This document shows positions 22,310 to 49,300 of a stretch of DNA of 64,000 bases, one piece after another. Both the position numbers and the translations under genes were made by a program. Within the stretch, counting starts at the first letter, position 1, and every line of letters begins with the position of its first letter. The notes under the pieces were generated by a model. That model was not told the DNA's origin. It saw only the letters and a list, made by a program, of their open reading frames with translations, and did not search any database. Source of the stretch: Chaetoderma sp. LZ-2023a. Its lineage: Eukaryota; Mollusca; Caudofoveata; Chaetodermatida; Chaetodermatidae. The stretch spans positions 76,280,833 through 76,344,832 of the forward strand of contig CM067371.1 in the NCBI GenBank assembly GCA_034401795.1. Reading direction: 5' to 3'.

Positions 22310-25300
22310 CTGCAAAAGAGAGATTACAAAATTTGTCAGTGTACTCTCACACTATGCATACATTATTTACTATGGTTAACATCGAGTAAGCATACGTGAC
22401 TTATGCACAAAGGTTCAATGTTGGATCGATGTATTAATTATTACATATCAAGCTTTCCCCTGCTTCACATGGAGACAAAACAAGAGTCTAGTTATTCTAT
22501 CGTGTCCATGGAAATAATAACAGAATGGATGGCTCCACTTTTAGCTATTCCCCCCCCCCCCCACCCCAACATCTCTAGCAACGCTCTGCCCACTCTTTGT
22601 CAATCTTGGGATCGAAAGAACCATGAATTCCCCGAATCTATGTTGAATATTTTGAAACTAATTCGTCCAGCCGAATTAGTTTCAAAATATTAAACAGTAT
22701 GGTCATTAAATAGTAAAGACATACAGTTCATACAACTGATCATAGACTTTTAAAAGTATTTAAAACGTCCATAGCTATATCATTCACTACATAATTGATT
22801 GCGACGTCAGCTTACGTGTGACGTAATTCATTATGACATCAATGCTTGAGTGACACATTAGATTCATCACGTCACAAGTGGTATGAAGGAAATTTAAATT
22901 TCCCTTTCTCCGAGATCTAACAATACTCACCATTCTGTTACTTCGGATATACAGCTGGCCCTGACAGCTGGCTCTAGGACTATAGACTTAGAAAGCTTTA
23001 CCGACTCCTTGGAACCGAGTACTCGGCTCCCAACTGCCGAGTACCCGTCTACCATAGAGCTCATTGTTTGCATAGCCACAAAACAAGAGAAACCCATGGC
23101 TTGCCTCCGTGGGGCTGGGAGGCTGGGTCCGTAACAAAATGGTGAGTATTGTTAGATCTCGGAGAAAGGGAAATTTAAATTTCCTTCATTCTCCTTCGAT
23201 CAATACTATTCTGTTACTTCTGATATACACCAGATTTGGTCAGTAACCTGGTGGGAAGGGGCAAGCCATAACTGCTACTTTTGCCCCTTGGAGAAAGAGC
23301 TAGACGTAAAAACTTGACCAATGGAGACCTAAAAAGGACCATCAAGTTAACGGAACTGAATCACATTCGCATCACTGCCCCCCCCCCCTTTTCTCCTAAG
23401 AAAAGGGAGAGAACTCACGAACATGCATCTCGCCTGAAAACACAAATATGCCAAGAGGCTTAACTGCTCTTTGCATATACAAATGTATTAGCCTGGGAAT
23501 GAGCATGAATATATAAGATGAATGAACATGATATATAGACATAATACAAAAAACTCAATCTTGAATTACCTCATGATAAATGCATTCCAGACGTACCGCC
23601 TCCAACCATTCACTTGTCCGGCCATCAGTGACACAATCTGGTTGTCATCCTCTCGCTCGACAATGTCTGCTTCTTAATTCCTTCTTACCAAAGTCAAAAA
23701 AGGGAGAAGAGCAGTGTGGTCGCTTAACTATCGTTTCAAAACAGCTAAAGCGAGTGGATTGGCCGAGTCTGACATATCCCTCATATAGTAATCCATGGAT
23801 GAGGACTCACAGTGCCATTGTGCAACGGCCATGATGTCCTCTAACGGAACACCAGTGTAAAGGGCGGTCGAGGCGGCTATTCCTCTAACATCGTGTGCCC
23901 TTGCGCCTTGCACCTGGTGCCCAGTCACCATCTCATGAGTAGTCTGAATGCATTCGACTACCCAACGAGAGATAGTATCCATGGATGCGGCGCCATAAGG
24001 CTTTTTATGGCAGATCCACAGATGTCTATCGTTCGACCGTAACGAGTCAGTCCGTTTTCTGTACTTAGTCAAAGCACGGACCGGGCACCAGACACTGGCA
24101 TTACGATCAAACCTAGTTAACTTCGGTATTATGATCGGTTTGCCGGGATATCTCAAAGATTGATTCTTTGACATAAACTCTGCTCTTGGCAGAAGACGCA
24201 GACCCTCTCCGGAGACAAGAAATCGGTCCCTCTCTGCCGAAAGCGCATGGATCTCACTGCGCCTTCTAGCTGAGGAAGCTGCCAATAGAAAGACCGCCTT
24301 TAGAGTCAAATGCTTTAGACTAGCCGAACGCAACGGTTCGAAAAGGTGCTTGGCCAGTACATTAAGCACTAAAGATAGACTCCAGGCTGGAATGACTACC
24401 GGTTGTCTCGGTCGGAGATTGCTCATTCCCTTCACCATCACATTTAACTGGGCCACCTCTGGACTATCCCTGTTGGCTAGACAAGGGATAACTGATGTCA
24501 AAGCTGACTTGTATCCAGCAATTGTGACTGGAGCTAGTCCTGAAAAGAACAGCTCACAGAGAGTCTGCTATTTGCTGAATAGTGGATTGAAAGGTATCAA
24601 TACCCTTTTCTTCACACCAGTCTGCAAATCTGTTAACCTTGTTGTTATATGACTTGAAGGTTGACCTCCTTCTCGCAGCCGCGATGAAATCAGCAGCTTG
24701 TCGAGAAAAGCCTTCCGACGTGGAACGTTGTTTGATAACATCCACGCAGTCAATTTGAACATTTCGGGACGCTCGTGTAGGAAGCGTCCCTTGGCCTGGG
24801 AGATTATGTTCGGAATCTCGGGTAACTGCACTGGGTTTTCCACTAGCAGATCTAGAAGATCCGTGAACCACGCCCTGCTGGGCCAAAACGGCGCTATTAG
24901 CAGGAACAGGCACGGTTCCTCCCTGATCTTCACCAATACCTTCGGCAGAAGAATGGTGGGTGGGTACGCGTAAGCATGCATCCCTCTCCAGCTTATCGCC
25001 AGAGTGTCTGTATCGAGGGCATTTGGATCTGGAATCGGCGAGACATAAGTCATGATTTGAGCATTTTCCCTTGTGGCGAACAAGCCCACGTTGGGTTTGC
25101 CCCAATGCTCGAAGATCCTTCGTAGAACTGGAGGGTTGAGGGACCATTCTGTTGGCAGAATTCTCTGTCTGCGAGACAAAGCGAGACAAAGCATCCGCCA
25201 GAATATTCAATCGCCCAGGAATGTGAGCCAAGCCTCGACGAAACGCATGAGCCTTCCACCCACTATAGACGCCACGACTATGGGGTTGTCCGGCTCGCAG

Positions 25301-28300
25301 TCCGCTACCCCCACCCCCCCCTCTCTTAACGAGAGAGAACCATTTCGGTCTTGGCTCGGCCGGTCTAACTGGCACCGCTGTTCCTGTCGCACAGGTGCGG
25401 TCCAGGCGGATACGAAGGGAGCTCTCGTACCCTCAGGTACGATCCGCTCCATTCTTTCCGCCCTTTGAGGACTTACCCTTCCCCTTGCCCTTCCCGCCTC
25501 TAGGGCGATCAGGAGCAACAGCTGAGAAAAGCCAGATGAAGCAGCAGCAGCCGCACTAGGCTTAGCTTTCGCCTTGCCTTTATGCTTCTTCTGCTTCTTG
25601 GAAGGTTGCACGGTCAGCGGCTTCCCTACAGCCCCTAGTGCCTGCGCTTGCCGCACCAGCTCTAGCTGTAGGTTCACCGCCAACCGATTCTGCGCAATGC
25701 TAGCCGTGTCCTCTGAGATGGCCCGCGCCTGGCCACCGAAGATGCTAGGGCCTGTCAGGGGCATCCCAAGAAGACGCTCCCTGACGGCCGTAGCCGGAAG
25801 CATATGGTCAAGAACCATTTGCCTCCTGGACTTCGTAACACGCGCCTGCACCCTTGCCAGTGCGTCCATAGACAGCACCAGGCTGTCATTGACGCACGAA
25901 AGCGCCACAGGTGGCACAGGGTGGCCTGCCCCCCCTCTTCAGCCCACACCGACTGAAGAAGGCGATAAGAATGGTTGACAGCACTCATGGCTGCCCTCAC
26001 ACCCTCATCGCAAAGGGACAGGACTTCCTCGTGGTGTGCCTGGGATTTGTCCACCAGTGCCGGGCCGAGGCCACCCGCTCCAGCACTCTGGACACCCAGA
26101 ACCCATCGGTCATCCTCGGTAACCGACGGTACAACACCATACCTGTCGCATTCCCACCGTGGAATACGACACCTCGCCCGCACCTCCCTGGAGGCCGCAA
26201 GGAGCTGGCCCTTGGTCATGAGTTGCTTACTATAAATAGCCTCTAGCAACTCAATAAACCGTGGATCCAGTCCAATGGACTGGATCCGGGCTGCTGGCAA
26301 GATCCCCGTCCTGATCGATGCCACCGATGGACGGGGTGCATCCTCCTCGGCCGTGGTCGAAACCACAGACGGGTCTACCCTGGCTAGCCAAGCCAGCCTC
26401 AGACCAGTCTATTTTCGAGGAGGACACACCCGTGAACACGTCACCCGTTGACATGTTCACGGACCTACCAGCCACGGCCACCTGGCTAGGAGCCGCGGCT
26501 GACACGCCAGGAACTCCGGTACCATATACGGTTCCGCCGCCACCCCATGGAACACACCAGTCCATGGAGTAGGCCCGCACGGAAAACCGTGCGGACCCAT
26601 AGCAGACACGGAACCGTGGCCAGCCACAGGCGCCAACGGCACCCCATGTCTGACCACCGGACCAGGCGAGATAGGCGAGTACCACGCCTGGCCCGGCACA
26701 CCCGTCACCGGGCAAGGAACTTCATCATCATATCAACAGACCACACTGCACATATATTACACCTATTGTCAAGGTTACATAACGTACACGGAAAGCAGAC
26801 ATGGTCCTTAAACAGGACCCGGACGAACTTGTGGCACTCGTCACATGATGGCGGGGCTGGCTTGGCCTATAAATAAGCACAAACCTACAATAAGCAAGCG
26901 GAACGAGACAAAGATGGAAGGCAGAGAATTAATTTTCAAATATATTGACCATAAATTAACTGTAACCCTCCCGCACCCCACCCCGCAACGTTACAGCAAA
27001 GATTGCATTGATTATGACGACAAGAACGAAGTGTGCATAAATACACCCATAAACTGATCCTCAAGGATGTATCACGGAACCAGGAATCATATCGCATAGC
27101 ATTCGGGGTATATTTACTAATAAATATAAATTATACTCCTAACGAAAGCCAAAACGATATGTGAAGAAACAACAAAATGAAAAACTGCTGTAGCACACGG
27201 TAAAACCGCAGACCACACATCTTAATCAAGAATTTTGAAACCACCGATCATTGCACAGATCGTGATAACACGTAAAACTTGAAATTTAGTACGCAGCACC
27301 TAGAATAAGATGCGCGAATTAATGAAAAATTTTCTTCACATAAACATCCGAGCAACACGGGTGTGACGTCACCTGCTCGGATCTTACGGAGAACGATGTC
27401 AGCCGATATTCGTGTTAAAAATACCGTACCAAACACCTATTTTCATATCTGCCGATCGCCTGTTGGGGATTTAAAGGAAGGCGATCATCTGGCATATTTC
27501 GTTGTTAACACACGTCCCAGATTCTTTGGGGTTAGAAATTGGAACATGCGACACACACGAAATTTTAGAGACCTAAGTCTTTTAACTATGGAATAATAAG
27601 GAAATATACAACCTGGTTATCATCGGCGGTATCCATATTAATCCAAATATCCTTGTAGAAACGCACTAGCTATCACAATAAACCACAGACAAAAAGACTT
27701 AGATTTAATTTCTCAAGATCTTTCCAACTGCAAAAGCATGTATTTCTCTTGTTGCTATGCAAACAAGAATGAGCTCTATGGTAGACGGGTACTCGGCAGA
27801 TGGGAGCCGAGTACCCGGTTCCAAGGAGTCGGTAAAGCTTTCTAAGTCTATAGTCCTAGAGCCAGCTGTCAGGGCCAGCTGTATATCCGAAGTAACAGAA
27901 TGGTGAGTATTGATCGAAGGAGAACATGTATCTTTCAGTCCTTTAACCCTTCAATGCTTAACGCTTACCACTCTGATGTCAAAATTTAAAATTTTCAAAT
28001 TAAATTAAAAGAGGAACGGGCATTCATTTTTCAACAAATTTGGTGGACAATGTTGCTGTCGTAGACAGCAACATCGTCCACCAAAATTGTTGGATAATGT
28101 ACACTAGTTTCTTTGCTATTAGCACAGTAAAAGATAAAATACTGACATCAGAGTGGTAAGGGCTAAGTTTGGTCAAGAAAATCTAAATATTTGGTTACTG
28201 AATGTTTATTTGCACGTCAAAAGATTATTTTGGAAAATTTGCCACAGGAATGACTGGCTGTTACTTAGCCAGGCATTACAATAGTAAATTGTCAAAAATA

Positions 28301-31300
28301 GTCTTCTCTTGGTCAGCAAATGGCCATTGAACATATTTCTCTTGGTCTGCAAATGGGCATTGAACATACTAAAGAGAGCTCTGCAGTTGTTTTGAGGAAT
28401 GTCTATTTACATTTCAAAGACAGACTATTCTTTATATTTTACTACTGGAATGACTGGCTCTAACTGAGCCAATTATTACTGGCCGAGCCAGTCATTCAAG
28501 TGGTAATTTTCAAAAATAGTCTAGACATTTACTAGGTAGAAATTTCAATTTTCTTTACAAATCTTCACCATTAAAGGGCTTAATAGAACTAATGTATTAA
28601 AGTATGCACAAAATGAAATTTTGGACAGCACACTGTCTTTTGGCCCTGCGTAATTGAGTCACATTTTATTTGCACTTGGCAATCAACAGGCCCGGTAAAT
28701 ACAGCATCTTGACAGCTAGTGTTGACTTAATTAAGCAGAGTAAATATCTTTAAATCTAACTTGTAGAATTGTCCCAGCTACCAATCACATCACAACATGT
28801 AATATGTCTCCGGAGCAGCTTTGTGCATGGTTCAGAGACAGCTTTGATTGAACGATTAGTAAACTGACGTATATTACTCTCACACACTAATGACTCAAGC
28901 ACTCTCAACTGAACAACCGGTCAAGTTGCTGGACATCGTCAATGCTGCACAAAGGCAGTGTGCAAATCAACACAAGTCCTGAGAGTGGATCTAAGGCAGC
29001 GTGTTATTGTTCCTAACGAGATCAGGACACCGTCATTCAAATTAGAATAGAATCAATATAAACCAAAATTGATCAAGCCTACATGGACCTCCACCATGTC
29101 CAATATCCAAGAAATAATTTGGCTGCAAAGCAATATATTCTATGGCCACGACTGGCAAGTTAGGCAATAAAATATTATGAACATGCACAAGGAGGACACC
29201 TACAAATATCTGTGAGCTGGTCGAGGGTACAGACAACTCAGAATACCTTATCTTGTATCTAGGATTTGCCTATATTGTGAAAAACATATTCAAGTATTTT
29301 TCCAAGCTTTATTGCGATTTTCTATCACTTTTCACAGCAAATTTCAAATGCAGTTTCTTTTAAAGGCTGACATCTAAATTAAAGTGTTTTTCAAATTTGT
29401 ATGAACCCTAAAAGCTGTAATTGAGCAGCACCGAGTGATACATGTATGTGTGCCTATTTCTTATCTTCATCCTGTCTGAGAACAAGTAAGAATTTTATTC
29501 TACCATAAATCGCCGAGTTGCATCTTTAATAGAAGTCGCATGCTAATTCTCGAGGTTGAACTATTTTAATTTCTTAGCAGCTTTAAAAGAGCAAATGTAT
29601 CTAAGAGAAGTCAATTAAACAAGAGGCCCAAGGGGCCTGTATCGCTTATCTGGACCATAAGCATTTCAACTAGAATGGTCATTAACAATAAGTAAAACTC
29701 TAATGAGTTGAGCAGACTTTTACAAGAAAACGGAGGCCATGTTTCTTTATGTATCAACTTCTCTTGAACAAACTTTAATGGTCATTAGTCATCAATATCG
29801 TATCTCCAAAATTCCGACACAATCCGTTCAGTGACTCTGGAGACAAAGTTGCTTTCATGAAAACCAGGCCATCCAAGATGGTCGCCTAACCATTTGGCAA
29901 ATCAAGTTCCCTTGAACAAACTTGGTTCAGCTCGTACCCTCAATGATATTTTATGACTTGAATCAATCGCTCAGTTTCGGCGAAGATTTTTAGACATTTC
30001 TAAAAATCAGCCAAATCCAAGATGTCCGCTGGACAAATTAGCTGATTGGCTTCGTCTGCACAAACTTGAATCTCTACAGCCTAAGGATGCTTCCTCCCAA
30101 ATATAATTGAAATCGGCCCAGTAGTTCTAGAAGACATTTTAAATTTCCCATTGCTTTAGTATGGGAGCTTTTGAGAGGAAAATGATCCAAGATGGCCGTC
30201 AAACCGTTTATTCGACCGTTTTGAAAATTGCAAATGTGTGATCAGAATACCCATAAACATATATAAAACCAATTTCAGCCTCAAAATCCATCAAATAAAA
30301 AAATCCAATGTGCCGCCAAACATCCTGTATTTTGATTAGCCCACTGCGGCCATGTTTTTTACGGATCAACTTCCCTTGAACAAACTTTAATGGCCCTTGG
30401 TCACTAATCATTTCAGCCCAATACCTTCAGCAGTTCTGGAGAAGTTGTTTTCGCTAAAACTAGGTCAACCAAAATGGTCAGCTCTTGCCCTAGATCATAT
30501 TTCATGGGGTTTGCTTGAATCCACCAAGCGAGTTCGGAGATTTTTAAATACATTTCCTAAAAGCTGCCAAAATCCAAAATGGTCACCTGCCAAATTGCCC
30601 GATCGGCTTCGTTTGAACAAACTTGGATCCTATGCCCTAAGGATACTTCCTTCCAAATATAATTGAAATCAGCCCAGTGGTTCTTGAGAAGTCGTTTAAA
30701 GAAAAGTGGACGACAGATAGAATGGCCACGTGAGCTAAAAATTGAATTTATTTTACAATAACATTTCACGAAAATAGCATCAAAACTACGGCACTTCCTT
30801 GTAGTAAAGTTATCAATGAATAATAAGTTATCAAACTGGTACACATTATGCGATTGGATTGAATGTATATTACTCGTCACCACACTATAATAATAGAGTA
30901 ATTTCCGAGTTCCCACATCCAGTATATTCGGAACGTAAATCTCAGACAACTCTGCCAAGTACTCGTTCTAAATACTGTCAAGTTTTTAATTTGTGCGAGT
31001 TTAGGGGCATCACTCTCGTACATGTAGCTACTCGGGTAGGTACTTGACGCTTCCCTCCTATTTATATGATTGGTGAAAGCACCTACCCGGGAACAGATAT
31101 TGGCGTTTTCGTACTATTCGATTAACAGGTTTTTCGCCATGCTCGAGTATGACGACAAACTCACCCTTTGACCTTCACGCTAGCGCATCATTACATGATT
31201 TATATATTTTTGTGACAGTTTATGTCACATCTAGGATTAATTTTGATGTAATAAACAATGTTTATTACACCTTTAATCCCTAAATTTTTTCACAGAAATT

Positions 31301-34300
31301 TCAATTTTCTCATAGAAAATGTAAATTTGCGAACCAAGAGATTAGTTTTGAAAATGTATTACTGGAATGACTGGCTCTGTTATCGAGCCAGTCATTGCAG
31401 CGATAAATTTTCAAAACTAATCTCTTGGTGTGCAAATGGCCGTTTCTCAGAAACACTGCAGAAGCTGTTTTTGCCCGGTTTGAGAACCGGGTTAAAGCAT
31501 TGAATAATTTCACTCCTGGGATCATGGTTATGAGGTATACATTAAGCAGTCGCAAGGCGGCAAGAATCTGTTCCAGGAAATTGTGTTAAATTTTAATGTT
31601 ACTGTTTATTTTTCTAACCATTATAGAGAATTGATAGCTACGTTTTCTTGAAATATAAGTAATAGAAGTTGCCGACACCCCCACCCACCCACCCACCCAG
31701 CCCCCACCCTTGGCAGAGATAACGCGAGATACATGTAGAAAACTAAAATAAATTGGTATGGGTAAGTACTATTTCTGGACTAATCATCCCTATGGGTTAC
31801 AAGTAAAAAGATTGCATCATACCGATTCATAAACCTTACATAGAACTTATATAATAACAATCTAACTCTAACAGAGCAGAAACAACAAATTCTTTATGAT
31901 TTAGAGAATATTCTGTTCAACATTTTGAAACATATTCGACTGGAAGCTGTTGCTCCCATATATGCCGCGAATTTAAGGCAGAGTTTCAAGGTTTAATGCT
32001 TATACGTACCAACTAAGTAGCTGTAAATGATAAGTGATTACAATTTTGAAAACAACAACACTGAGTGATGCGTTTCTATTTCTTATGTTCACCACGATCT
32101 GAGAAATTTTTTTTTTAATCTAACTCGTTGTCCCAGCTACCAATCACATCACAGCATGTAATGTCTCCAGAGCAGCTTTGTGCATGGTCCAGAGATAGCT
32201 ATGATTGAAAGATCAGTAAACTGACGTATATTACTCTCACACACTAATGACTCAAGCACTCTCAACTGAACAACCGGTCAAGTTGCTGGACACGGTAAAT
32301 GCTGCACAAAGGCAGTGTGCAAATCAACACAAGTCCTGAGAGTGGATCTAAGGCAGCGTGTTAGTGTTCCTAACGATATCAGGACACCGTCATTCAAATT
32401 ACAAAAGAATAAACAAACTAAAACTGATCACGCCTACCTCCACTTGCCAAGAAATAATTTAGCTATAAAGCAATATATTCTATGGCCACGACAGGCAATT
32501 AAATATTATGAACACACACACAAGCTGGACTCCTAATCACCAAGGACTGGCCCTGATTTTAGCTTTATATATTCATCTCATTGTAACACATTCTCCTTAC
32601 TTGTGCTAAACTCAGCACAAAGATAACGCGAGATACATGTAGAAACTAAAATAAATTGGTATGGGTAAGTACTATTTCTGGACTAATCATCCCTATGGGT
32701 TACAAGTAAAAAGATTGCATCATACCGATTCATAAACCTTACATAGAACTTATATAATAACAATCTAACTCTAACAGAGCAGAAACAACAAATTCTTTAT
32801 GATTTAGAGAATATTCTGTTGAACATTTTGAAACATATTCGACTGGAAGCTGTTGCTCCCATATATGCCGCAAATTTAAGGCAGAGTTTCAAGGTTTAAT
32901 GGTTATACGTACCAACTAAGTAGCTGTAAATGATAAGTGATTACAATTTTGAAAACAGCAACACTGAGTGATGCGTTTCTATTTCTTATGTTCACCACGA
33001 TCTGAGAAATTTTTTTTTTAATCTAACTCGTTGTCCCAGCTACCAATCACATCACAGCATGTAATGTCTCCAGAGCAGCTTTGTGCATGGTCCAGAGATA
33101 GCTATGATTGAAAGATCAGTAAACTGACGTATATTACTCTCACACACTAATGACTCAAGCACTCTCAACTGAACAACCGGTCAAGTTGCTGGACACGGTA
33201 AATGCTGCACAAAGGCAGTGTGCAAATCAACACAAGTCCTGAGAGTGGATCTAAGGCAGCGTGTTAGTGTTCCTAACGATATCAGGACACCGTCATTCAA
33301 ATTACAAAAGAATAAACAAACTAAAACTGATCAAGCCTACCTCCACTTGCCAAGAAATAATTTAGCTATAAAGCAATATATTCTATGAACACGACAGGCA
33401 ATAAAATATTATGAACACACACACAAGCTGGACTCCTCATCACCAAGGACTGGCCCTGATTTTAGCTTTATATATTCATCTCATTGTAACACATTCTCCT
33501 TACTTGTGCTAAACTCAGCACAAAGATAACGCGAGATACATGTAGAAACTAAAATAAATTGGTATGGGTAAGTACTATTTCTGGACTAATCATCCCTATG
33601 GGTTACAAGTAAAAAGATTGCATCATACCGATTCATAAACCGTACATAGAACTTATATAATAACAATCTAACTCTAACAGAGCAGAAACAACAAATTCTT
33701 TATGATTTAGAGAATATTCTGTTGAACATTCTGAAACATATTCGACTGGAAGCTGTTGCTCCCATATATGCCGCGAATTTAAGGCAGAGTTTCAAGGTTT
33801 AATGCGTATACGTACCAACTAAGTAGCTGTAAATGATAAGTGATTACAATTTTGAAAACAGCAACACTGAGTGATGCGTTTCTATTTCTTATGTTCACCA
33901 CGATCTGAGAAAATTTTTTTTTAATCTAACTCGTTGTCCCAGCTACCAATCACATCACAGCATGTAATGTCTCCAGAGCAGCTTTGTGCATGGTCCAGAG
34001 ATAGCTATGATTGAAAGATCAGTAAACTGACGTATATTACTCTCACACACTAATGACTCAAGCACTCTCAACTGAACAACCGGTCAAGTTGCTGGACAAT
34101 GTCAATGCTGCACAAAGGCAGTGTGCAAATCAACACAAGTCCTGAGAGTGGATCTAAGGCAGCGTGTTATTTTAGTACTTAACTAGACACACATGTATAT
34201 GACACTCATATGTTAACCCTTTGAACCCTGAATTCCCAGAATCATAATTTTAATAAGAGCATACAAGTATGCTGCTGAATATTTTGAACCTAATTTGACA

Positions 34301-37300
34301 GGAACCTCTTGTTGCCATAGGCAGCAACAGCTCCCAGTCAAATTAGTTTCAAAATACTCAAAAGAATGTTTTGCCCTTCGGGTTCAAAGGGTTAAGGTTT
34401 ATTTGACTGAAAGTTGTTGCTGAGTATGAAAGTGTAATGTTTAACAGAAATATCTTCCATGCAAATTCTAAGCAAATGACTAGTCATTATTCATCAGCAT
34501 AATTGTGCTAGGACCTCATTCTGCAATCCAGAAGCTGGGGCACTTTAATAGGGATGACAAGTGTATACCTAATTAAATTGCCGACGAGTCCATAGATTAT
34601 ACAAACGGGCTTTATTTAATGACAAATTCATTTGACCTTGCAGTACCTGCACCGTATTGCTACAGTTGTACAAGATAAATGTGAATGAGAGAAACCTTTC
34701 AGGACTCAAATTATATATGGAAATTATTGAATGATAAACAGATGACACCAGGAACCAGCTTTGTTTGTACACAGGATATGCTCAGTGACATTCAGCAGCA
34801 AATAAACAATTTCATATGAAATCTTGAAAGTTTTTTCATTTGCGACTTGCGACAGATCGCAATGAGCTAAGCTCAAACTCATGAAAACCCATCCATCTGA
34901 AACTATTAATCCAGGGGCTAATACGACAACAAGAACAATACTTGCGACTAGGGCGGCAGCTTTGTTAGAAATCTTTAAAACTTTGACCGACAGACCCGGC
35001 CATAATTTATCTGGTATCGCGTCTCAATTTGCTACACATATTTAAGCAGTTGCTATACATTCTGCAACATACATAGCTGTATCTGCTATGCAAAATGTGT
35101 ACGTGATTGCAATTTATCATTGATTTTCAAAGTTCTATTATCAACCCTTTCAACAACAAATCCCTGAAAAAGTAAACTCTTTACAATGTATGCCATACTT
35201 TGTTGAATATTTTGAAATTAATATGACTGGAAGCCATTGCAGCAATGGCTTCCAGTCAAATTAATTTCAAAATATCAAACAGCTTTCCTGTTTGTTTACT
35301 CTGAGATTGAGATACAGGGAGTTTAGCGGTGAAAGAGTTGATTGCTTTACATTTTTGCCGACCGCTATACAATTTATAGTTTGCGTAGCAATACATGCTA
35401 TGCAAATATCAAATTCTAAATTATGCCCTGCAGACTGACAGACCACTAGCGATCAGTAAAGCTTTGGCTATTAGATCGTCACTGATAATTGCCACCCTTT
35501 CATGTCACCCTTTCATGTAACTGGTTTTCAACCTGTAAACAATGCAGCTGTTAGCTTTCGCAACAACAGGAAATAATTTCGTAATTCAATGGACCGTTCT
35601 AGTTTTAGCTATGCCCCACCGATCTCTAGCTAAGCTCCACACAGACCCTGCTTGTCTTGGGATCAATCGATCCCTGAACTCTCAATTACCAGAAAACTGC
35701 ACAGGTAAGTTGATAAATATTTTGAACCTATTTTGACTGGACGCTGTTGCAGCAACAGCGCCCGGTAAAATTGGTTTCAAAATATTCAACAGAATGTTTA
35801 TTAAATGGTAAATACATAATTCGTACATCATGTCGAACGAACTATTAAGCTCTAACGACAGACTAAATCGAGTTATTCGTGCCATAATTAGTTATGACGT
35901 CATCCTACACATCGCTTAGTTGATTATGACCTCATATGATGTCAGATGATGGATGGATAAACTGGAAAGGTTCATTGTACAGACGTTCGACCAAATCTGT
36001 AATAATTTTAATCTACTGAAATTGTATAATACAAGTGAATTGCTTTAAGAATCGACCCTTATATGGTCATCCCAACCAAAACATCTTCAATTGTCGCAAA
36101 AGTTTCCATCCATAGGCCAGAAAACCATTTTTTTAAATGCATCACTGGAATGAGTGGTCCATGGATTAATTTAACACTTCTCTTGGCCTGCAAATTGGCA
36201 ATTGCTAAGCAGTTGCACCGCCATTGTAACTTGGTGACCGCAAAAGTAGTTTTCATTGCATAAATGAAGCATCCATTTCTAGCTACCATTTTTATTCGAG
36301 AAAAGGACGCTAGCTTGTATTGGACGTAGGCTAAATTTGGCCCAAACCCTCCTCAAAAATCCTTATACTCGTAGACAGCACCCATTGAGAAATTGAAATT
36401 CATTCTCTAAAATGGTTAAAACTCATAGAACCTACCACAAAAATTCAATGCAATTTCCATACACATGCTTACTGTCGTACCACAATGTTTAATGTACACC
36501 TCAAAAATATCATCGTGGAAGTGAAATTATTAATGGGACCGCCTAAATATTGCGCATCTTCAATAAAGATCGTTTATTACATCAAAATCAACGCTACTTT
36601 TCATATAAATTGTTACCGAGAAAATATAGAAATCAGCTGACATTCGGAATGTGGTAAGATCACCAGTTGTGTTAACTAGATTTCTTCTAATATCTGCCAT
36701 TCTCTATTTCCACTGGCTTGTACGGGAAAATTTATCCAATCAGAAAAGATAAAAATTGATAATGGAAGTGTTTTCTCTCATATTACGCATTAATATTGTA
36801 ATGCCGACCAACATTAAATGATCCAAAACGGAATAAAGACATGACAAAAGTTGCTTGAAAGTCTGAGAATTAAAATGAGATAAAGCGCTTCTTATGTTGG
36901 TGAGCCGCTGGCTCTTTTGCGATTGGAAGCGCTGTGTTCTCGCGAGATCTTATACGCTAATGGGAGTTGTTTATCAAACGGGTACGGATCAGCCCTAAAG
37001 TACAATACTTAGTTCTTATCGCGCAATGATAACATATAGTATTCAGAGTTCCGAGTCCACAATATGTTATCAGAGTACTCGCTCTAATTAAAAACAATCT
37101 TTTGAGATTGGAGGTGAATCACATGGTTTATATCTTTTTTCGACGCCATTTTATGTCAAATTCAGGATTAATTTTGATGTAATAAATGATCTTTATTAAT
37201 GGATACATAATATTTAGGTGCTCCAATTTAATAATTTCAATTTAGCGATGATGTTTTGAGGTATACATTAAACATAGTCGTAAGGAGGCGAGAATTTGTA

Positions 37301-40300
37301 ACATGCGAAAATGAGTTCAATTTTCGTGGTATCAGTTAAATTTTTTTTTACGAAACTTGACCCAAAAAAAAGTGCTCAAAGAATGTACTCTATTATAGGG
37401 CATACCCCTTCCTAGAACATACAATATGACAAAAAAACTACATCCTTTCCTCGAATAAAAATGGTATGCAGGGCCGTAAATTTCTGCTCTCAACTTTTTA
37501 CATCTGCTGGAATTGATTTGAAACTGAAACCTGAATTCCCAGAATCAACATCAAGCTAACTATACAGGCAAGTTGTTGAATATTTTGAAAATAATTTGAC
37601 TGGGGATGTAGCTGCCTATGCAAATTAATTCCAAAATATTTAACAGAATGTTTTTTAAATTGTCAATTCATCAGACATACAATTCGTACAGTTTTCGGAG
37701 ACTTTTTGATTTTCCCGATACATGCGTGGCAGACAAAATACAGAGTGTATCCCTCTATTAAAGTAGTATCCCTGGTCACGTACCCAACAAGCCGAGCTTC
37801 TTGGCTACATCGAGAAAGTTGCTTCCTTTATCCTGGTTCAGTTTTGAGACGATCGTGTCCGCTGGATGTGATACAATAGCGCAAAAAATACCAGCTGTAA
37901 AGCAAAACAAACATAGTACTTACATGATGTATATAAATATCCAGATATCTATTAAAAACATTAATCTAATCAGCAAAATGTTTACAAAGACAGGCAGGTG
38001 TGCATCTTCACAACTATGATACTGTTGCCATCCTTAAAGAAAATGAGCAGGCAGGTATTCAGAATTTATTAGATTTAATCTACATGTATCCAGATCTGAG
38101 CAGCCGTTTTCATTATATGACCATTACATTAGAATTAGTGTCAGGGTATCGGAACCTGAAGAATAAGTTTGTCTACTTACCTAGCATCCTAGCCTACAGT
38201 TTTAACTATTTAACACTCATATCAGCCAAAACCGGCTTCTGCAGTGGTCTAGGGAAATGTCCATTTGCAGACCAAGAGAAGACTATTTTTGAAAATTCAT
38301 CACTGGAATGGCTGGCTCAATAACAGTTAAATTTTCAACAAGAATTCTGCGGAATTAAATGTCTCGCCTGTCTCCTGTTTGTCAGTTACCTTTACCTTTA
38401 ACCTTCTGCCCTCAATGCTATTATGCTGCTTCCTAACATTATAGGTAACCATGTATCCAAGTTCGGTTACAATAGGCTTAACCAATCCTGAAATATAAGC
38501 CGAGAAGTTTTGCTAAACGCAAAACCTTAAGGTTTAAATAACAGTTCCATATCAATGTCACAGTGACCTTGACCTTCGGCATTGTGACACCAACATCATC
38601 ATGCTGCTTCCTATCATTATAGGTAACCGTGTATCCAAGTTTGGTTCCAATTGGATCAGGCATTGCTGAGATATAAGGCAATGACTTTTGTTTAATGCAG
38701 ACTTAACGTAAAATATTAACAAAGATTATACCGTGCCCTTTGAACCCCATAACCTTGACATCATGATGTCTGCATCAGCATGCTGCTTCCGTTAAATGTA
38801 AATCACTATGTAACCAAGTTTGGTTCCAATTGGATCAGGCATTGCTGAGATATAAGGCAATAACTTTTGTTTAACTCAAAAACTTCACGTAAAATATTAA
38901 CAAAGATTATACCGTGACCTTTGACCCCTGTAACCTTGAACTCAGGGCCTTTTTATCGGCGGGCTGCTTCCTTTTGATGTATATTACCATGCACCCAAGT
39001 TTGGTTCCAATTGGACCAGGCATTGCTGAGATATAAGCTTAACTTAAGTTTACGCTGCCGCCGTCGCCGGAAAAGTATTACCTATGTCTCGATCCTGCTT
39101 CACATGTGAGACAAAAATGGGCTCTTGGTTCGCAAATTGACATTTTCTAATGAGAAAATTGAAATTTTCTTGAACAAATTTAAGGGCTACAGGGTTAAGG
39201 TATATAGTTAAACAAGAGGCCCAAGGGGCCTGTATCGCTCACCTGCATCATAGGCATTTCAACAAGAAAGGCCATCAACAATAAGTATAACACTACAGAG
39301 TTGAGCAGAATTATAACAAGAAAACAGAAGCCATGTTTCTTTATGTATCAACTACTTTTGAACAAAACTTAACGGCCCTTAGTCCCTTATCATATCTCCC
39401 AAATTTCGGCCCAATCCGTTCAACGATTCTGCATACGAAGTTGTTTTCACAAAAACTAGGTCATCCAAGATGGCCACCAAGCCAATCAGGTTCTCTTGAA
39501 CAAATTGGTTCTCCTCCTGCATTAGATGATGTTTCATGAGTTTTGAATCAACCCCCAAGCCGTTTCGGAGATTTTTAAAGACATTTCTAAAAATTGACTG
39601 GTTTAGCCAGTGGCCATCTTGGATTTTGGCCGATCAGCTTTGTTTGAACAAACTTAGACCTCTATGCCCTAAGGCTGCATTCTGCGAAATATAATTGAAA
39701 TCGGCCAAGTGGTTCTTGAGAAGAAGTCGTTTAAAGAATTCCCCATTGCTTTACTATGGGCCCATTGCTTTACTGTGGGAGCCTATGGTAGGAAAACAAA
39801 CCAAGATCCCAGTCACACCATTTATCCAACAGTCTCGAAAGTGGCATATTTCAACTCGCCACCCTGATAAGCATATATACAGCAATTTTCACCATCAAAA
39901 TACATCAAATACCAAAAAACGCCAATATGACAAAAAGCTAAATTTTGATTGGTTGATGCCGGCCATGTTTTTTAACGTACAAACTTCCTTTGAACAAATT
40001 TGAATGGCCCTTGGTCCCTAAACATATTTACCAAATTTCAGCGCTATCCCTTCAGCGGTTCGGGAGAAGTCGTTTTCGTGAAAACTACGTCATCCAAGAT
40101 GGCCACCAAGCAAATAAGTCAATCAGGTTGCCTTGAATAAACTTGGGTCTAACGTTGCCATAGATGATGTTATGAGTTTTGAATCAATTCCTCCAGCGGT
40201 TTCGGAGATTTTTTACTGGTTCTAAAAATCAGCCATTTTGGATTTTGGCTGATCCGCTTCGTTTGAACAAACTTAGATCTCTATGCCCTATGAATGCTTC

Positions 40301-43300
40301 CTCCCAAATATAATTGAAATCGGCCCAGTGGTTCGTGAGAAGAAGTCGTTTAAAGAATTCCCCATTGCTTTACTATGGGCCCATTGCTTTACTATGGGAG
40401 ACTATGGCGGGAAAATAAACCAAGATGGCAGGAAAACCGTTTATCCAACAGTCTCGAAAGTGGCATATTTGAACTCGCCACACTGATAAGCATATATAAA
40501 GCAATTTTCGCCATCAAAATACATCAAATACAAAAAAAGCCAATATGACCAACAAACGCTAAATTTTTATTTGTTGATGGCGGCCATGTTTTTTAAAGTA
40601 CGAACTTCCCTTGAACACACTTGAATGGACCTTGGTCCCAAAGCATATTTACCAAATTTCAGGTTTATCCCTTCAGCGGTTCGGGAGAAGTCGTTTTTGC
40701 GAAAACTAGGTCATCCAAGATGGCCGCCAGGCAAATCGTCCAATCAGGTTGCCTTGAACAAACTTGGGTCTACCGTTGCACTAGATGTGTTATGAGTTTT
40801 GAATCAATTCCTCCAGTGGTTTCGGAGATTTTTTAGTGTTTCTAAAAATCTGCTATTTTGGCCGGCGGCCATCTTGGATTTTGGCCGATCGGCTTCGTTT
40901 GAACAAACTTTAATCTCTATGCCCTACGGATGAAATCGGCCTAGTGGTTCCTGAGAAGTCGTTTAAAGAAAAAGTTGACGGACGACGGACAGTCGCCATG
41001 GCATAAGCTCACTTGGCCTTTCAGGCCAGGTGAGCTAAAAACCATAAGCTAAACGTCACTTGAAAGATGACCTGCTGTCTATTGTTCAGATACACTATGT
41101 AAAAATAAACACCTGATATATGTACACTGGTGATTGAAGAAGAATTTATCCTTTCATGGGCAAGCCAGACAGAACAGGCCTATGCAGTTGTTTTGCGAAT
41201 GTCCATTGGTAGACCAAGAAGTATTTTTGAAAATGTACAACTGGAATGCCTGGCCCGATAGCGGAGCCAGTCGTTCCAGTGGTAAATTTTCAAAAACACT
41301 CTTCCCTTGCCATGCAAATGAATATTAGTGCTAAAGCATACATTCAATCACAGTCACAATACATTTCAGCACACAATTCAACCACCCTCAGATGGTTCAC
41401 TCACCAATGTAACCTGCAGCAAATGTGACAATCAGCTGCTCGCCCTTTGAACAATCACTGCGAGGCTTTGGTACAACAAACTTGTATATTGCCTCTACTG
41501 TGCGCTCAAAACAGGCAAACTTCATCATTGTGTACGGGATCTGCCGTGCCCACAATGGCACCAAACCCTTGTAAAACCTGCAGCGAATAAAATAATGATA
41601 ACAAGAAGTTTCAATGCAATCCGACAAAGGGTAACAGAGTTATCATTCGGAAACCAATTTTCAAGATGGTCGACGGTGGCTGGCGGTCATCTTGGATTTC
41701 AGATCATCGTCAATTTCGATAGGTTTCTTCCCAAGACCTAGTCCAACCACCCTATGAAGTTTCAATGCGATCCGACAAAGGGTAATGGAGTTATCATTCG
41801 GAAACCAATTTTCAAGATGGCCACCGATAGCTGGCGGCCCTTCTTGGATTTTGGATCAGCGTCGATTTTGATAGGTTTCTTCCCAAGACCTAGTCCAACC
41901 ACCCCATGAAGTTTCAATGCGATCCGCCAACCGGTAACGGAGTTATCATCCGGAAAGCACTCTGCCGCCAGCCCCCTACCCCCCCCCCCCCCACACGGAT
42001 GATGGCATTACATAATAACCCGCCAGATTTTTGCATCTGCTAATCACTGGTTTTACATAAATCTATGTATGGAGATCTCATATACGCAATGATTTAGACA
42101 TGGACAATGGACCGTTCCACTTTTAGCTATGCCCCGCCCACCTCTAGCTAAGCTCCACCCTCCTTCATCCCCGAATGCCCTAACTATCAATTTCCTGAAA
42201 ACTATTCAAGTAAGATGTTGAATATTTTGTAACTAATTTGACTGGGTGCTGTTGCTGCCCATGCCAGCAACAGCGTCCAGTCAGATTAGTTTCAAAATAT
42301 TCAGAATATTTATTAAATAGTAAACATACAATCCATACAACAACGCATCTAGTCCGTCTTCAAATATGCGTTTGTACCGTACTTATCTACATCACTCATG
42401 ATGTCATAATGATGTCATTCATTATGATGTCATTCTACACATCACATAGTTGATTATGATGTCATATGATGGATGGATGGATAAGTGGAAAGGTCCATTT
42501 AGATCTTTCCTACAGATTAGATCTACTGGATTCACGATTACTCGCATTTGCACACAGATAATATGCCTCGTTAAACTAAGTATACTCACCCACCCCATCC
42601 TTCATCTTTCAACATACGTGGAAATCCTTCTCTTAATGTCGTTGACCATCCAGGCTGTGTTTGAATGCGAACCTTAATTGCCTCCATGGGACAAAGAGCA
42701 ATATCTGCAAAGAACTCGGCTGAAGCACTGGCAGCCAGATATAAAGAAGTCCTCCATAAGTATGAATTCTCCTGAAAATAACAAACATCCAGTGCAATCA
42801 GGGCTTGAAATTAACCTGGGGCCTAATGCACCAACGGATCAGTGAAGCGTCAAAGGCTACAGCTCTCATTTAGCAATATAGAACAAGAAGTCAAAGGCCC
42901 TGTAATGCTCACCTAGACAATTAGCATTTGAAACATTTGCATTTAAATAGACATGATCCTTTATAGTCACAGTTAACAAGATAGGCATCGGAAAATATGT
43001 ATGAGCCTAACAGCATAGGGTCCAGATTCAACACAGATCTTATTGAAATCTGTAAATCTATTTAGTAGCGATTTGACGGATGGATGGACATCGCACAATG
43101 GATGGACTGGCCGCCATGGCATAAGATCACTTAGCCAGGTTACCTAATAAAATCTAAGATTTTCACCAAAGAGAATTGACCAATCGAACTTATTTCTGAT
43201 GCCTACGTGTACAACCAAACATTTGATGAATAAAAAATTTGCATGAAAATTCTAGAGCCTACCACCATATATATATGATCTTTCTAGCCAAATTTGGTTG

Positions 43301-46300
43301 AAAGCTGTAAAGCTTTTAACCCTTTGAAACCTGAATTTATTTCTGTGGTCGGCACACCCACCGAGTTTATAGTGATAGCATCGCCAAGTTTCGGAAAATC
43401 GGCTTTCATGTGTATATGCCCATTTTTTTAATGATGTCAGCCTATAATCATAGGGATGTCCAGGCCGGAATTCCAGACTTTTGGGTATATGGAATTTCAG
43501 GCTCAAAGGATTAAGGAGAAAAAGCGATTTTCACCCAAAAAGTTAACTTCTGTATTGCTCCTGCATGTAGATAATTTAATCTAAGCCTAGCACAAAACTC
43601 AGCCATGTCAGCACATAGATTTTCTTAACACTTTAAAAACGGGAAAACTCCCAGGGCTTTAGATTACCCCTTATCTATGACTTTACAAGTCATGCCCAAA
43701 ATGAAATCTGCCCATATTATTGAGCCCAAATTAAAATCCTAGTGGCTGCTATGAACACTAACTGATTTACAGTCAATTAAATACTCAGAGGTGGATTCTG
43801 TGACATTTTAATGGACATTCAGAGATCTAGTGTTATTAAAACTAAAATGGCTCAAAATCCATCTCTCAGATTTGAAAACTAGTTTCTAGGAGCATTGATG
43901 GATCCCGGGCCAGATAGGTGATGAGCCTAAATAATAGCCTAAATATCTAAAGCCATGACTCCCTTTAGAATACAAGCCTAACCAAACCTCACCCCTCCAC
44001 ACCATTTTGATCTTCACACTTTTTCCAAGTATTGACGTGAAATAAATAATCCATCATTCATTGTACATGTATCAAATTGCATGGTTGAAATATGGACTTC
44101 AATAACATGAAGATTGCAGGAAATGTCAATTCCCCTTTCTCCGAGATCTAACAATACTCACCATTCTGTTACTTCTGATATACAGCTGGCCTTGACAGCG
44201 GCTCTAGGATTATAGACTTAGAAAGCTTTACCGACTCCTGGGAACCGGGTACCCGGCTCCCCACTGCCGAGTACCCGTTTACCATAGAGCTCATATTGTT
44301 TGCATAGCCACCAAACAAGAGAAAACTATGGCTTGCCTCCGTGGGGCTGGGAGGCTGGGTCCGTAACAGAATGGTGAGTATTGTTAGATCTCGGAGAAAG
44401 GGAAATTGACATTTCCTGCATTCTCCTTCGATCAATACTCACCATTCTGTTACTTCTGATATACACCAGATTTGATCAGTAACCTGGTGGGAAGGGGCAA
44501 GCCATACATGCTAATTTTGCCCCTTGGAGAAAGATTTTAGACTTCAAACTTGACTAACGGAGACCTAAAAGGACCGTCAAGTTCACGGAACCGAATCACA
44601 TTCGCGTCACAGCCCCCCCCCCCCTTTTTCCTCCTAAGAAAAGGGAGAGAACTAACGAACATGTATCTCGCCTGAAAACACCAATATGCCAAGAGGGTTA
44701 ACTACTCCCTGCATATCGCTTGTATTAGCCTGGGAATGAGCATGAATATATACGATGAATGAACATGATACATATACATAATACAAAAAACTCTCACTTG
44801 TTGAATTACCTTATGATAACAGGACTTCAGACGTACCGCCTACAACCATTCACCGGTTCGGCCATCAGTGACACAATCTGGTTGACATCCTCTCGCCTGA
44901 CCATGCCTGCTTTAGGTTCTTTTCTTACCGAAGTGAGAAAAGGGTGAAAAGCAGTGTGGTCACTAACTATCGTTTCAAAACAGCTAAAGCGAGTGGATTG
45001 GCTGAGTCTGACACATCCCTCATATAGTAATCCGTGAATGAGGACTAACAGTGCCATTGTGCAACGGCCATGATGTCCTATAACGGAACACCATTGTAAA
45101 GGGCGGTTGAGGCGGCTATTCCTCTGACATTGTCTGCCCTTACGCCTTGCACCTGGTGCCCAGTCGCCATCTCGTGAGTAGTCTGAATGCATTCGACCAC
45201 CCAAACGAGAGATAGTATCCATGGATGCGGCGCCATAAGACTTTTTATGGCAGATCCACAGATGTCTATCGTTCGACCGTAACGAGTCAGTCCGTTTCTT
45301 GTACTTAGTCAAAGCACGGACCGGGCACCAGACACTGGCATCACGATCAAACCTAGTTAACTTCGGTATAATGATCGGTTTGCCGGGATATCTCAAAGAT
45401 TGGTTCTTTGACATAACCTCTGCTCTTGGCAGAAGACGCAGACCTTCTCCAGAAACAATAAATCGGTTCCTCTCTGCCGAAAGCGCATGGATCTCACTGC
45501 GCCTTCTAGCTGAGGAAGCTGCCAATAGAAAGACCGCCTTTAGAGTCAAATGCTTTAGACTAGCCGAACGCAACGGTTCGAAAGGGTGCTTGGCCAGTAC
45601 ATTAAGCACTAAAGATAGACTCCAGGCTGGAATGACTACCGGTTGTCTCAGTCGGAGATTGCTCATTCCCTTCAACATCACATATAACCGGGCCACCTCT
45701 GGACTATCCCTGTTGGCTAGACAAGGGATAACTGATGCCAAAGCTGACTTGTATCCAGCAACTGTGACGGGAGCTAGTCCTCAAAAGAACAGCTCACAGA
45801 GAAAGTCTGCTATTTGCTGATAGTGGATTGAAAGGTATCAATACCCTTTTCTTCACACCCATCTGCAAATCTGTTAACCTTGTTGTTATATGACTTGAAG
45901 GTTGACCTCCTTCTCGCAGCCGCGATGAAATCAGCAGCCTGTCGAGAAAAGCCTTCCGACGTGGAACGTTGTTTGATAACATCCACGCAGTCATTGAACA
46001 TTTCGGGACGCTCATGTAGGAAGCGTCCCTTGGCCTGGGAGATTATGTTCGGAATCTCGGGCAACTGCACAGGATTTTCCACCAGCAGATCTAGAAGATC
46101 CGTGAACCACGCCCTGCTCGGCCAATACGGCGCTATTAGCAGGACCAGACACGGTTCCTCCCTGACCTTCACCAATACCTTCGGTAGAAGAATGGTGGGT
46201 GGGTACGCGTAAGCGTGCATCCCTCTCCAGCTTATCGCCAGAGCGTCTGTATCGACGGCATTTGGATCTGTAATCGGCGAGACATATGTCATGATTTGAG

Positions 46301-49300
46301 CATTTTCCTTTGTGGCGAACAAGTCCACGTTGGGTTTGCCCCAATGCTCGAAGATCCGTCGCAGAACTGGAGGGATTAGGGACCATTCTGTTGGCAGGAT
46401 TCTCTGTCTGCGAGACAAAGCATCCGCCAGAATGTTCAATCGGCCAGGAATACGAGCTGCTTTCAAAACAACCGAGTAATTCCTGCACCATTGAATCAAG
46501 TGCCACACCCTGATACACAGAGTGGGCGACCTGGTCCCGCCTTGGCGATTTATATATGATACTACTGTCGAATTGACCGACCGTATCAATATCACCCTGC
46601 CCCTGATCATCGGAAGGAACTCTTCCAACGCCAGTTCCACTGCCATCATTTCCAACAGATTGATATGCAGCTGACTCTCCGGGAGAGTCCATGTGCCCGA
46701 GACCTGGTTCTCCCAGGCAGGCACCACACCCTTCCAGCGATGCATCCGTGTAGACGGACAGCTGGGGGCGGGGTAGGTGCAGCAAAACCCCTAATAGGAG
46801 ATTCTGACGCTGTTTCCACCATAGAAGATGCGATATTATCGGCTCCAAAACTGGCAACAGTTTTGACAGGGGTTCTGTTCTCTGTTTCCACAGAGACATC
46901 AGATACAACTGGATAGGCCTTCGCATTAGAGCATCGTACGGGATAACCTGCTCCATGGAGACCATCATGCCCAGCATCTGAAGGAACCGCCTCGCCTTGA
47001 ATGTGGTTTCCCACTCGAAAACTCTTGAGGATGGCTAACAGACACCACTCTGGGCTCTGACGGGTAAACCCTGCCCTCCTCGAGGTCGAATCGCATCCCC
47101 AAATAAACGAAACGTTGAGTGGGCGTCAACTCGGATTTCTCCTCGTTGACTATGCAGCGTAGATCTGAAAGTAACTTCAGAGTCAGAGCAGTATCCACGT
47201 TCAACCTGGCTGCCGAGTCTGCCTTGAGCAGCCAGTCGTCTATGTAGGTGTGTAGCGCCACATTCTCTTTTCTGAGAAACGCTGTCACCGCAAGGACCAC
47301 TCTTGTGAAAAACCCTCGGAGCTGTCGACAGGCCAAACGGGAGAACTGTAAACTCCCATACTTGATTCTGAAACGCAAATCTCAGAAACCTGTGCCAACT
47401 CCGATTGATCGGAATGTGGAAATATGCATCTTTCAAATCGATCGATACACACCACATTCCTTTCCTCAATCCCGCCATTACCGACCTCGGTGTTTCCATC
47501 TGGAACCGAGGCGTATGGATAAACCAATTTAATGGCCTGAGATTGAGTATGGGTCTCCATCCCCCCGTGCTCTTGGGGACAAGGAACATGTTTGAATAGA
47601 AGCCTGGAGTGTTCCGGTTTGCTGGTTTTATTGCTCCCTTCAGAAGCAAACCCGACACTTCCTTTTGAACGGCTTCTAACTTGTCTGGCTCCCTTGGTAC
47701 GGGTGTCCAGACTGGTGCCAAAGACAGATTTTGTGGCGGAAAGTCCCACCACTCCGGCATGTAACCCTGGGATAACCATCCCAGGACCAGACTGTCTGAC
47801 GTCACACCTCGCCAAACCTCGACGAAACGCATGAGCCTTCCACCCACCATAGACGCCTCGACGTCTAACGGGGTTGTCCGGCTCGCAGTCCGCCCTCCCC
47901 CCCTTTCTTAACGAGAGAGAGTGAGAACCATTTCGTTCTAGGTACGACGGGTATAACTGGCACCGCTGTTCCTGTCGCACAGGTGCGGTCCAGGCGGATA
48001 TGAAGGGAGCTTGCGTACCCTCAGGTACGCTTCGGCCCCTTCTGTCCGCCCTTTGAGGCCTTACCCTTACCCTTCCCCTTACCACCTCTAGGGCGGTCAG
48101 GAGCAACATTGGGGAGGGTAGGCGCCTCTACAGCCCTCCTGGGTTTCTTCGCCGGCGGCGGCTCCGAGAACCCAGCCGAAACAGACGTCGCAATAGGCCT
48201 GGCTTTCGCCTTGCCCTTATGCTTTTTCTGTTTCTTTGAAGGCTGTCCGGTTAGCGGCTTGCCCACAGCCCCTAGTGCGTGCGCTTGCCGCACCAGCTCT
48301 AGCTGGAGATTTACCGCTAACCGATTCTGCGCAATACTGGCGGTGTCCTCTAAGATGGCCCGCGCTTGGCCACCAAAGATGCTAGGCCCTGTCAGGGGCG
48401 TCCCAAGAAGACGCTCCCTGACTGCCGTAGCCGGACGCATATGGTCAATGACCATTTGCCTCCTGGACTTCGTCACACGCGCTTGCACCCTTGCCAATGC
48501 GTCCATTGACAGCACCAAGCCGTCATTAACGCACGATAGCGCCACAGGTGGCACAGGGTGGCCTGCCCCCGCTTCAGCCCACACCGACTGAAGTAGACGA
48601 TAGGAGTGATTGACAGCGCTCATGGCTGCCCTCACACCCTCATCGCATAGGGCCAGGACTTCTTCCTGGACTTCTTCCTGGTGTACCTGGGCCTTATCCA
48701 CTAGTGCCGGACCGGGACCACCCGACCCCGCACTCTGGACGCCCAGTACCCATCGGTCATCCTCCGTGACCGACGGGACTACACCATACCTGTCGTATTC
48801 ACCCCGCGGAATACGGCACCTTGCCCGCACCTCCCTGGAGGCCGCAGGGAGCTGACCCTTGGTCATTAGTTGTTTACTATAAATAGCATCCAACAAATCA
48901 ATGAACCGTGGATCCAGTCCCACTGACTGGATCCGGGCCGCGGGCAAAATCCCCGTCCTAATCGACGCAACCGACGGACGGGGCGCATCTTCATCGGCCG
49001 TGGCCGAAACCACAGACGGGTCAACTCTGGCTAGCCACGCCAGAGCATCAGACCAATCTAACTCCGAAGAAGATACCCCCGCAAACACGTCACCCGTTGA
49101 CCTGCTTACGGGTCTGCCAGCCATGGCCTCCCGGCCAGGAGCCACGGCTGACACGCCAGGCACTCCGCTACCACATGGTTCCGCCGCCACCCCATGAAAC
49201 ACTCCGGTCCATGGGGTAGGTCCGCACGGAAAACCGTACGGACCCGTAACCGTCGCGGAACCATAGCCGGCCACGGGCGCCAACGGCACCCCATGTCCGG

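Follow-up and report, generated by a model that had tools for sequence, protein, structure and literature searches.

Left ends of a DIRS1-like element in Chaetoderma match the internal complementary region of their own copy

Two copies of a DIRS1-like element

The window analyzed here is a stretch of 64,000 nucleotides from the caudofoveate mollusc Chaetoderma sp. LZ-2023a (assembly GCA_034401795.1, contig CM067371.1, positions 76,280,833 to 76,344,832 of the forward strand), and it contains two copies of one DIRS1-like element. Copy 1 (22884 to 27924, minus strand) is 5.0 kb long and internally shortened relative to copy 2 (44115 to 51322, minus strand), which is 7.2 kb long. By self-BLAST, the two are 93% identical over the first 2.3 kb; past that point, three more pieces align at 85 to 86% and parts of copy 2 are missing. 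The features that mark the element as DIRS1-like are inverted terminal repeats, an internal complementary region (ICR) complementary to both element ends, and a reverse transcriptase. The flanks of both copies show, by eye only, no evident shared repeat of the kind left by a target site duplication. The coding frames are on the minus strand, so what we call the left end, in window orientation, is the 3′ terminus in coding orientation.

In both copies, the ICR is found some 250 bp in from the left end and has two halves, the first complementary to the left end and the second to the right end. Site numbers count from the first base of that left end; the following positions are on the plus strand. 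In copy 1, the left end (sites 1 to 58, 22884 to 22941) is 98% complementary to the facing ICR half at 23132 to 23189; the half facing the right end (23190 to 23229) is without the CACC that copy 2 has, and the right end (27880 to 27924) pairs with 23189 to 23229 at 89%, gapped. The left inverted terminal repeat of this copy (22921 to 23081) pairs with 27749 to 27912 at 96%. In copy 2, the left end (sites 1 to 58, 44115 to 44172) has a single mismatch, at site 18, to its own facing ICR half (44363 to 44420), and the right end (51278 to 51322) is complementary to the second half (44421 to 44465).

The reverse transcriptase frame of copy 2 (47038 to 47850, minus strand) matches RVT_1 with an E value of 2.5e-10 and goes on in an overlapping frame at 46968 to 47378, where the second match (E value of 4.4e-06) is under the curated cutoff. 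A further frame of copy 2 (45813 to 46745, minus strand) has a weak match to Dam methyltransferase, also under the curated cutoff (E value of 0.012). No Pfam match to a tyrosine recombinase was obtained in the open reading frames (ORFs) of either copy, nor a PDB sequence match for copy 1. In the copy 1 ORF at 23731 to 24501 (minus strand), the residues R, HxxR, H, and Y can be found by eye in that order, resembling a tyrosine recombinase motif.

Among the sites that vary across the family, copies 1 and 2 differ at three, namely, 3 (A versus C), 11 (T versus G), and 13 (A versus C), and at each of these the ICR of either copy carries the complement of its own left end. The own-copy matching described in the initial annotation is therefore real in the window copies, and it extends genome-wide. 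Three of the roughly four covarying positions proposed there are sites 3, 11, and 13; the other, site 18, is the copy 2 mismatch itself, with the left end altered and the ICR keeping the usual letter. In copy 1, a mismatch at site 52, the single one within sites 1 to 57, went unmentioned, and the ICR half facing the right end has a 4-base gap. A 16-base block of copy 1, GGAAATTTAAATTTCC, is its own reverse complement, so the match in this copy is partly trivial and becomes directional only through the flanking letters. With up to 3 mismatches allowed, this block occurs 10 times in the window versus 0.68 expected, four of these occurrences being accounted for by the ends and ICRs of both copies. 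Chance is excluded by length and number, the complementarity in the family spanning 58 bp.

Agreement across the genome

A pattern for the ICR found 7,896 matches in the 2.44-Gb genome. Joint patterns tie a left end to the ICR of one copy, and the expectation for agreement was taken from allele frequencies. At site 3, the left end/ICR combinations were C/G in 4,549 matches, A/T in 3,229, A/G in 104, and C/T in 71, an agreement of 7,778 in 7,953 (97.8%) versus 51.4% expected (phi, 0.95). At site 11, counted where the ICR has G at site 3, they were G/C in 3,934, T/A in 618, T/C in 17, and G/A in 16, so that 4,552 of 4,585 matches agreed (99.3%, versus 76.2% expected; phi, 0.97). Many copies with differing variants, the observation proposed at the outset as the one that would count against matching, were looked for genome-wide in this way, and disagreement came to only about 2% at site 3 and 0.7% at site 11. 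Some loci entered the counts twice, once per strand, where right-end-like sequence adjoins a left end; by eye, this applied to 6 of 100 C/G matches listed, and both-strand reading was seen for 4 of 92 sampled left ends. By eye, the discordant site 3 matches listed (171 of 175) include 5 reverse readings and 9 insertions into a left end.

Finer questions were addressed with a sample of 94 copies. It is based on the 100 ICR matches listed of the 7,896, all from the first 40 Mb of C1, which represent 99 loci (L009 to L038 and L069 to L137), one match being a second reading of the locus of L106. L069 (the same locus as L038) was dropped, as were L080, L084, L095, L105, L130, and L137, where the left end is missing or degraded; the remaining loci and both window copies (W1 and W2) make up the 94. 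These still include three poor left ends (L011, L026, and L035, with 7, 11, and 16 mismatches), six loci of one tandem array (L114 to L119), and a few nested loci.

In this sample, complementarity is 89 to 100% at each of sites 1 to 58 but falls to roughly 1% or below at sites 59 to 62, and 56 of the 94 copies are mismatch-free over sites 1 to 57. Seven segregating sites (3, 11, 13, 45, 52, 53, and 54) covary, to unequal degrees; the same seven-site haplotype is present on both sides in 76 copies, compared with a maximum of 36 in 5,000 permutations. For sites 45 and 54, agreement extends to the other ICR half (r2, 1.0), and both lie within a 20-base stretch common to the left end and both ICR halves. 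We considered whether site 58 is an inherited mismatch marking the templating edge, an idea weakened by the finding that four of the six copies with that ICR change (L116 to L119) are in one tandem array on C1. At this locus (G000:C1:33178105-33192764, L114 to L119), six ICRs follow one another on one strand at a spacing of 2.6 to 3.2 kb, apparently a tandem array of shortened copies.

Linkage, independent changes, and private mutations

Matched ends and ICRs could simply be linked, and therefore the linkage of each end site to its ICR partner was compared with its linkage to intervening sites having at least 5 minor copies among the 94. At site 3, r2 between left end and ICR is 0.95, versus 0.47 for the best intervening site tested; at site 11, the values are 0.95 and 0.66. 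Sites 3 and 11 occur in all four possible combinations, each matched between end and ICR. Agreement of a left end is also more frequent with its own ICR than with that of the nearest relative by spacer (91 versus 78 of 94 copies at site 3 and 92 versus 78 at site 11). A split into just two subfamilies, the alternative suggested at the outset, is too simple an account of a family with four matched haplotypes and an end-ICR linkage exceeding that to the tested sites between them, and we reject it. A tree of element bodies, in which 51 of 70 rows are distinct and letters are readable on both sides in 45 (site 3) and 46 (site 11), has site 3 changing three times and site 11 twice, and every independent pair changes in the same direction in end and ICR. 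Thousands of copies thus mostly descend from few events, and the strength of the case is that both sides changed in each event.

Changes private to single copies do not match. At 35 unconstrained sites, we found 22 singletons in left ends and 14 in ICRs, and none of the 36 is common to the left end and the facing ICR half. Mismatch grows with distance to the nearest relative (Spearman coefficient, 0.47; P = 2e-6). Since private changes are unmatched, the match mostly arises as a copy is being produced and is not kept up afterwards. Eleven mismatch types recur in 2 to 4 of the 94 copies, and 8 of these are in copies outside each other's five nearest by spacer, the pattern expected of repeated independent mutation. 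For these eight types, a reading as inherited mismatched lineages was rejected. ICR site 4 was likewise rejected as a further covarying variant. Among the matches listed, 20 of 30 copies with a change there, identified by eye, were fetched; three (L150, L163, and L154) are without a usable left end, and of the 17 readable left ends, 16 have the usual letter, 1 has a third letter, and none has that of the ICR.

How ends and ICR come to match

In DIRS-1 of Dictyostelium discoideum, a transcript without the end sequence is proposed to have its ends restored from the ICR, with the resulting circle then inserted by a recombinase, according to a 2017 review, which regards full experimental proof of the mechanism as still lacking (PMC5633606). 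It seems likely that new copies in the Chaetoderma family, too, are born with a left end matching their own ICR, one having been made from the other in replication, and that the two later drift apart by mutation. The outer left end, over 57 to 58 bp, would be identical in complement to the ICR at the birth of each copy; one of the two would be made from the other during replication; and after insertion they would diverge through ordinary mutation. What speaks for this is that inherited variants match while private ones do not, that the boundary at site 58/59 is sharp, and that linkage at sites 3 and 11 skips the sequence between. The data fit the DIRS-1 scheme, with a tied tract that would run over about sites 1 to 58. 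The transcript without ends, the role of the ICR as donor, and the circle intermediate would follow the published DIRS-1 model. Templating as that model predicts, the explanation first offered for the matching, is supported by the genome-wide agreement and by the linkage; calling the matching direct sequence support goes too far, given about five independent inherited changes and a covariation without donor direction.

Several observations weigh against this explanation. The number of independent inherited changes at sites 3 and 11, about five, means that a sign test cannot reach 0.05, and the rows of the tree are a nonrandom set (L001 to L008 were chosen by similarity to copy 1 and L039 to L068 by matching pattern). 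Sites 45 and 54, with end-ICR r2 values of 1.0 and 0.94 versus 0.89 and 0.93 for intervening sites, are tied hardly beyond linkage, and site 13 is the weakest of the seven (r2, 0.27; 84 of 94 match). The right end gave no test, as the ICR pattern fixed most right-half letters and right ends are kilobases away. The covariation is symmetric and does not distinguish donor from recipient. L129 has a singleton at site 42 that its left end shares with the nonfacing ICR half only, and 3 of the 11 recurrent mismatch types are found with near relatives, mostly involving the degraded copy L035.

The discordant copies at site 3 belong here as well. Discordance is higher there than at site 11 (2.2% versus 0.7%) and is not all private. 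Among 24 discordant copies that were read, site 3 is the sole segregating site to differ in 19 (4 of these also differ at nonsegregating sites); in the other five (L139, L144, L146, L178, and L182), at least two segregating sites differ, a result that single mutations do not yield. The left-A/ICR-G matches listed (100 of 104) include 62 with the left haplotype A-G-C, and by eye, among these matches listed, 51 of the 62 carry the body motif CCTTG and 4 carry CCCTG. Left-A/ICR-G discordance therefore clusters in a single lineage; private mutation at the site 11 rate does not explain this, and strict within-element copying does not predict it.

Other explanations for the matching have to account for the same observations. 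Selection for complementarity, whereby mismatched elements replicate poorly and a change in the end or the ICR is subsequently compensated in its partner, would likewise yield matched haplotypes, and the left-A/ICR-G cluster of about 51 rows could be a surviving mismatched intermediate. Such intermediates are expected at every changing site, yet only 33 of 4,585 matches at site 11 are discordant, and mismatches common to close relatives are few (3 of 11 recurrent types in the 94-copy sample), so that we regard selection as unlikely. Under plain co-inheritance, a few subfamilies would happen to have ends that match their ICRs, and elements would be copied over their whole length with no templating. 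That most copies are matched by descent from three changes at site 3 and two at site 11, and that linkage of sites 45 and 54 to intervening sites is nearly as tight, is what it would lead one to see; however, it needs two coincident complementary substitutions for each of the five changes, and it is at odds with the stronger end-ICR linkage at sites 3 and 11 and with four combinations that are all matched. We consider it quite improbable. Reverse templating, with the end as donor and the ICR rewritten from it, draws on the symmetry of the covariation but appears very improbable, as nothing in the data favors it and, in the part of the review available, the DIRS-1 sense transcript is without parts of the ends and the ICR is internal (PMC5633606). 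Finally, chromosomal gene conversion after insertion, between inverted repeats that are about 250 bp apart and could pair, would fit the foreign-looking ICR haplotype of L139 and the L129 singleton, but, with none of 36 singletons at unconstrained sites shared by the left end and its facing ICR half and mismatch increasing with distance to the nearest relative, it is the most doubtful of these.

Returning to templating within the element, the left-A/ICR-G cluster may stem from templating from another RNA, from a recombinant lineage, or from inheritance bypassing the ICR. Candidate parent lineages are separated by body positions 684 to 707 (copy 2 numbering). In matching copies, the two body-motif letters stand at 19 to 31 with C-G-C and 8 to 2 with A-G-C; the nearest-relative result points to a C-G-C body, whereas the body motif fits A-G-C better (8/10 versus 19/50). 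No fixed spacer difference was found between the groups. One can tentatively envision that the roughly 2% of discordant matches include trans templating, in which an end takes its sequence from the ICR of another RNA that shares the replication complex, a possibility to which we give limited weight. If so, DIRS complexes would hold at least two RNAs, end joining between molecules would be possible at a rate readable from the genome, and the cluster of about 51 rows would have arisen while two closely related lineages were coactive.

The Chaetoderma element is of a known kind. DIRS-1 similarly has inverted terminal repeats and a noncoding ICR complementary to both ends, and the review describes both the proposed use of the ICR to rebuild missing end sequence and the insertion of elements into copies already present (PMC5633606); host and sequence differ, and here the matching was tested on thousands of natural copies. 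AcaDIRS1 and AcaDIRS2 of Aplysia californica and others likewise have two ICR halves with a short junction, inverted terminal repeats partly constrained by the ICRs, and a short stretch common to both repeats and the ICRs, for which AATACTCACCATTCTGTTAC is the counterpart in the Chaetoderma element; the available part of that study annotates representative elements and does not report within-family covariation (Piednoel et al. 2011; PMC3266345). In the available portions of the open-access literature (PMC3266345, PMC2685390, PMC5633606, PMC9210276, PMC6681497, and PMC3783388), we found no published within-family test of end/ICR covariation. The test made here is quantitative: 7,896 ICR matches in one genome turn a structural argument into one that yields the end bases tied to the ICR (1 to 57-58), the failure rate, and the assignment of failures to private mutations or exchanges. 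An equivalent count is feasible wherever a DIRS family is abundant in a genome. The replication scheme for DIRS-1 dates back decades, and ends matching the internal template support the rebuilding of ends in each copy.

Insertion sites and other observations

The sequence just outside the left end shows a target preference, A G A N. Of 88 sampled left flanks, 63 have A at position −4, 67 have G at −3, and 81 have A at −2, while only 3 have G at −1; the preference is similar to GGAGAA, with which the element itself terminates on the right. ICRs reading CATTCTCCGAGATCTAAC number 46, by eye, among 100 matches listed of 109. A subfamily with a variant right extension was considered and rejected, for in all six fetched loci of this type (L169 to L174) an element is inserted into the ICR of another between GGAGAA and A, the ICRs being palindromic. 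By eye, none of the 100 of 153 matches listed has a right end matching these ICRs at 2 to 8 kb, with a pattern that omits right ends followed by A. Elements are also inserted into the left end of another copy after GAAAT, between TGAAGGAAAT and TGCAGG and in the reverse orientation, as seen by eye in nine discordant rows. Outside both DIRS copies, direct repeats of about 900 bp can be read off the sequence at window positions 31700 to 33990.

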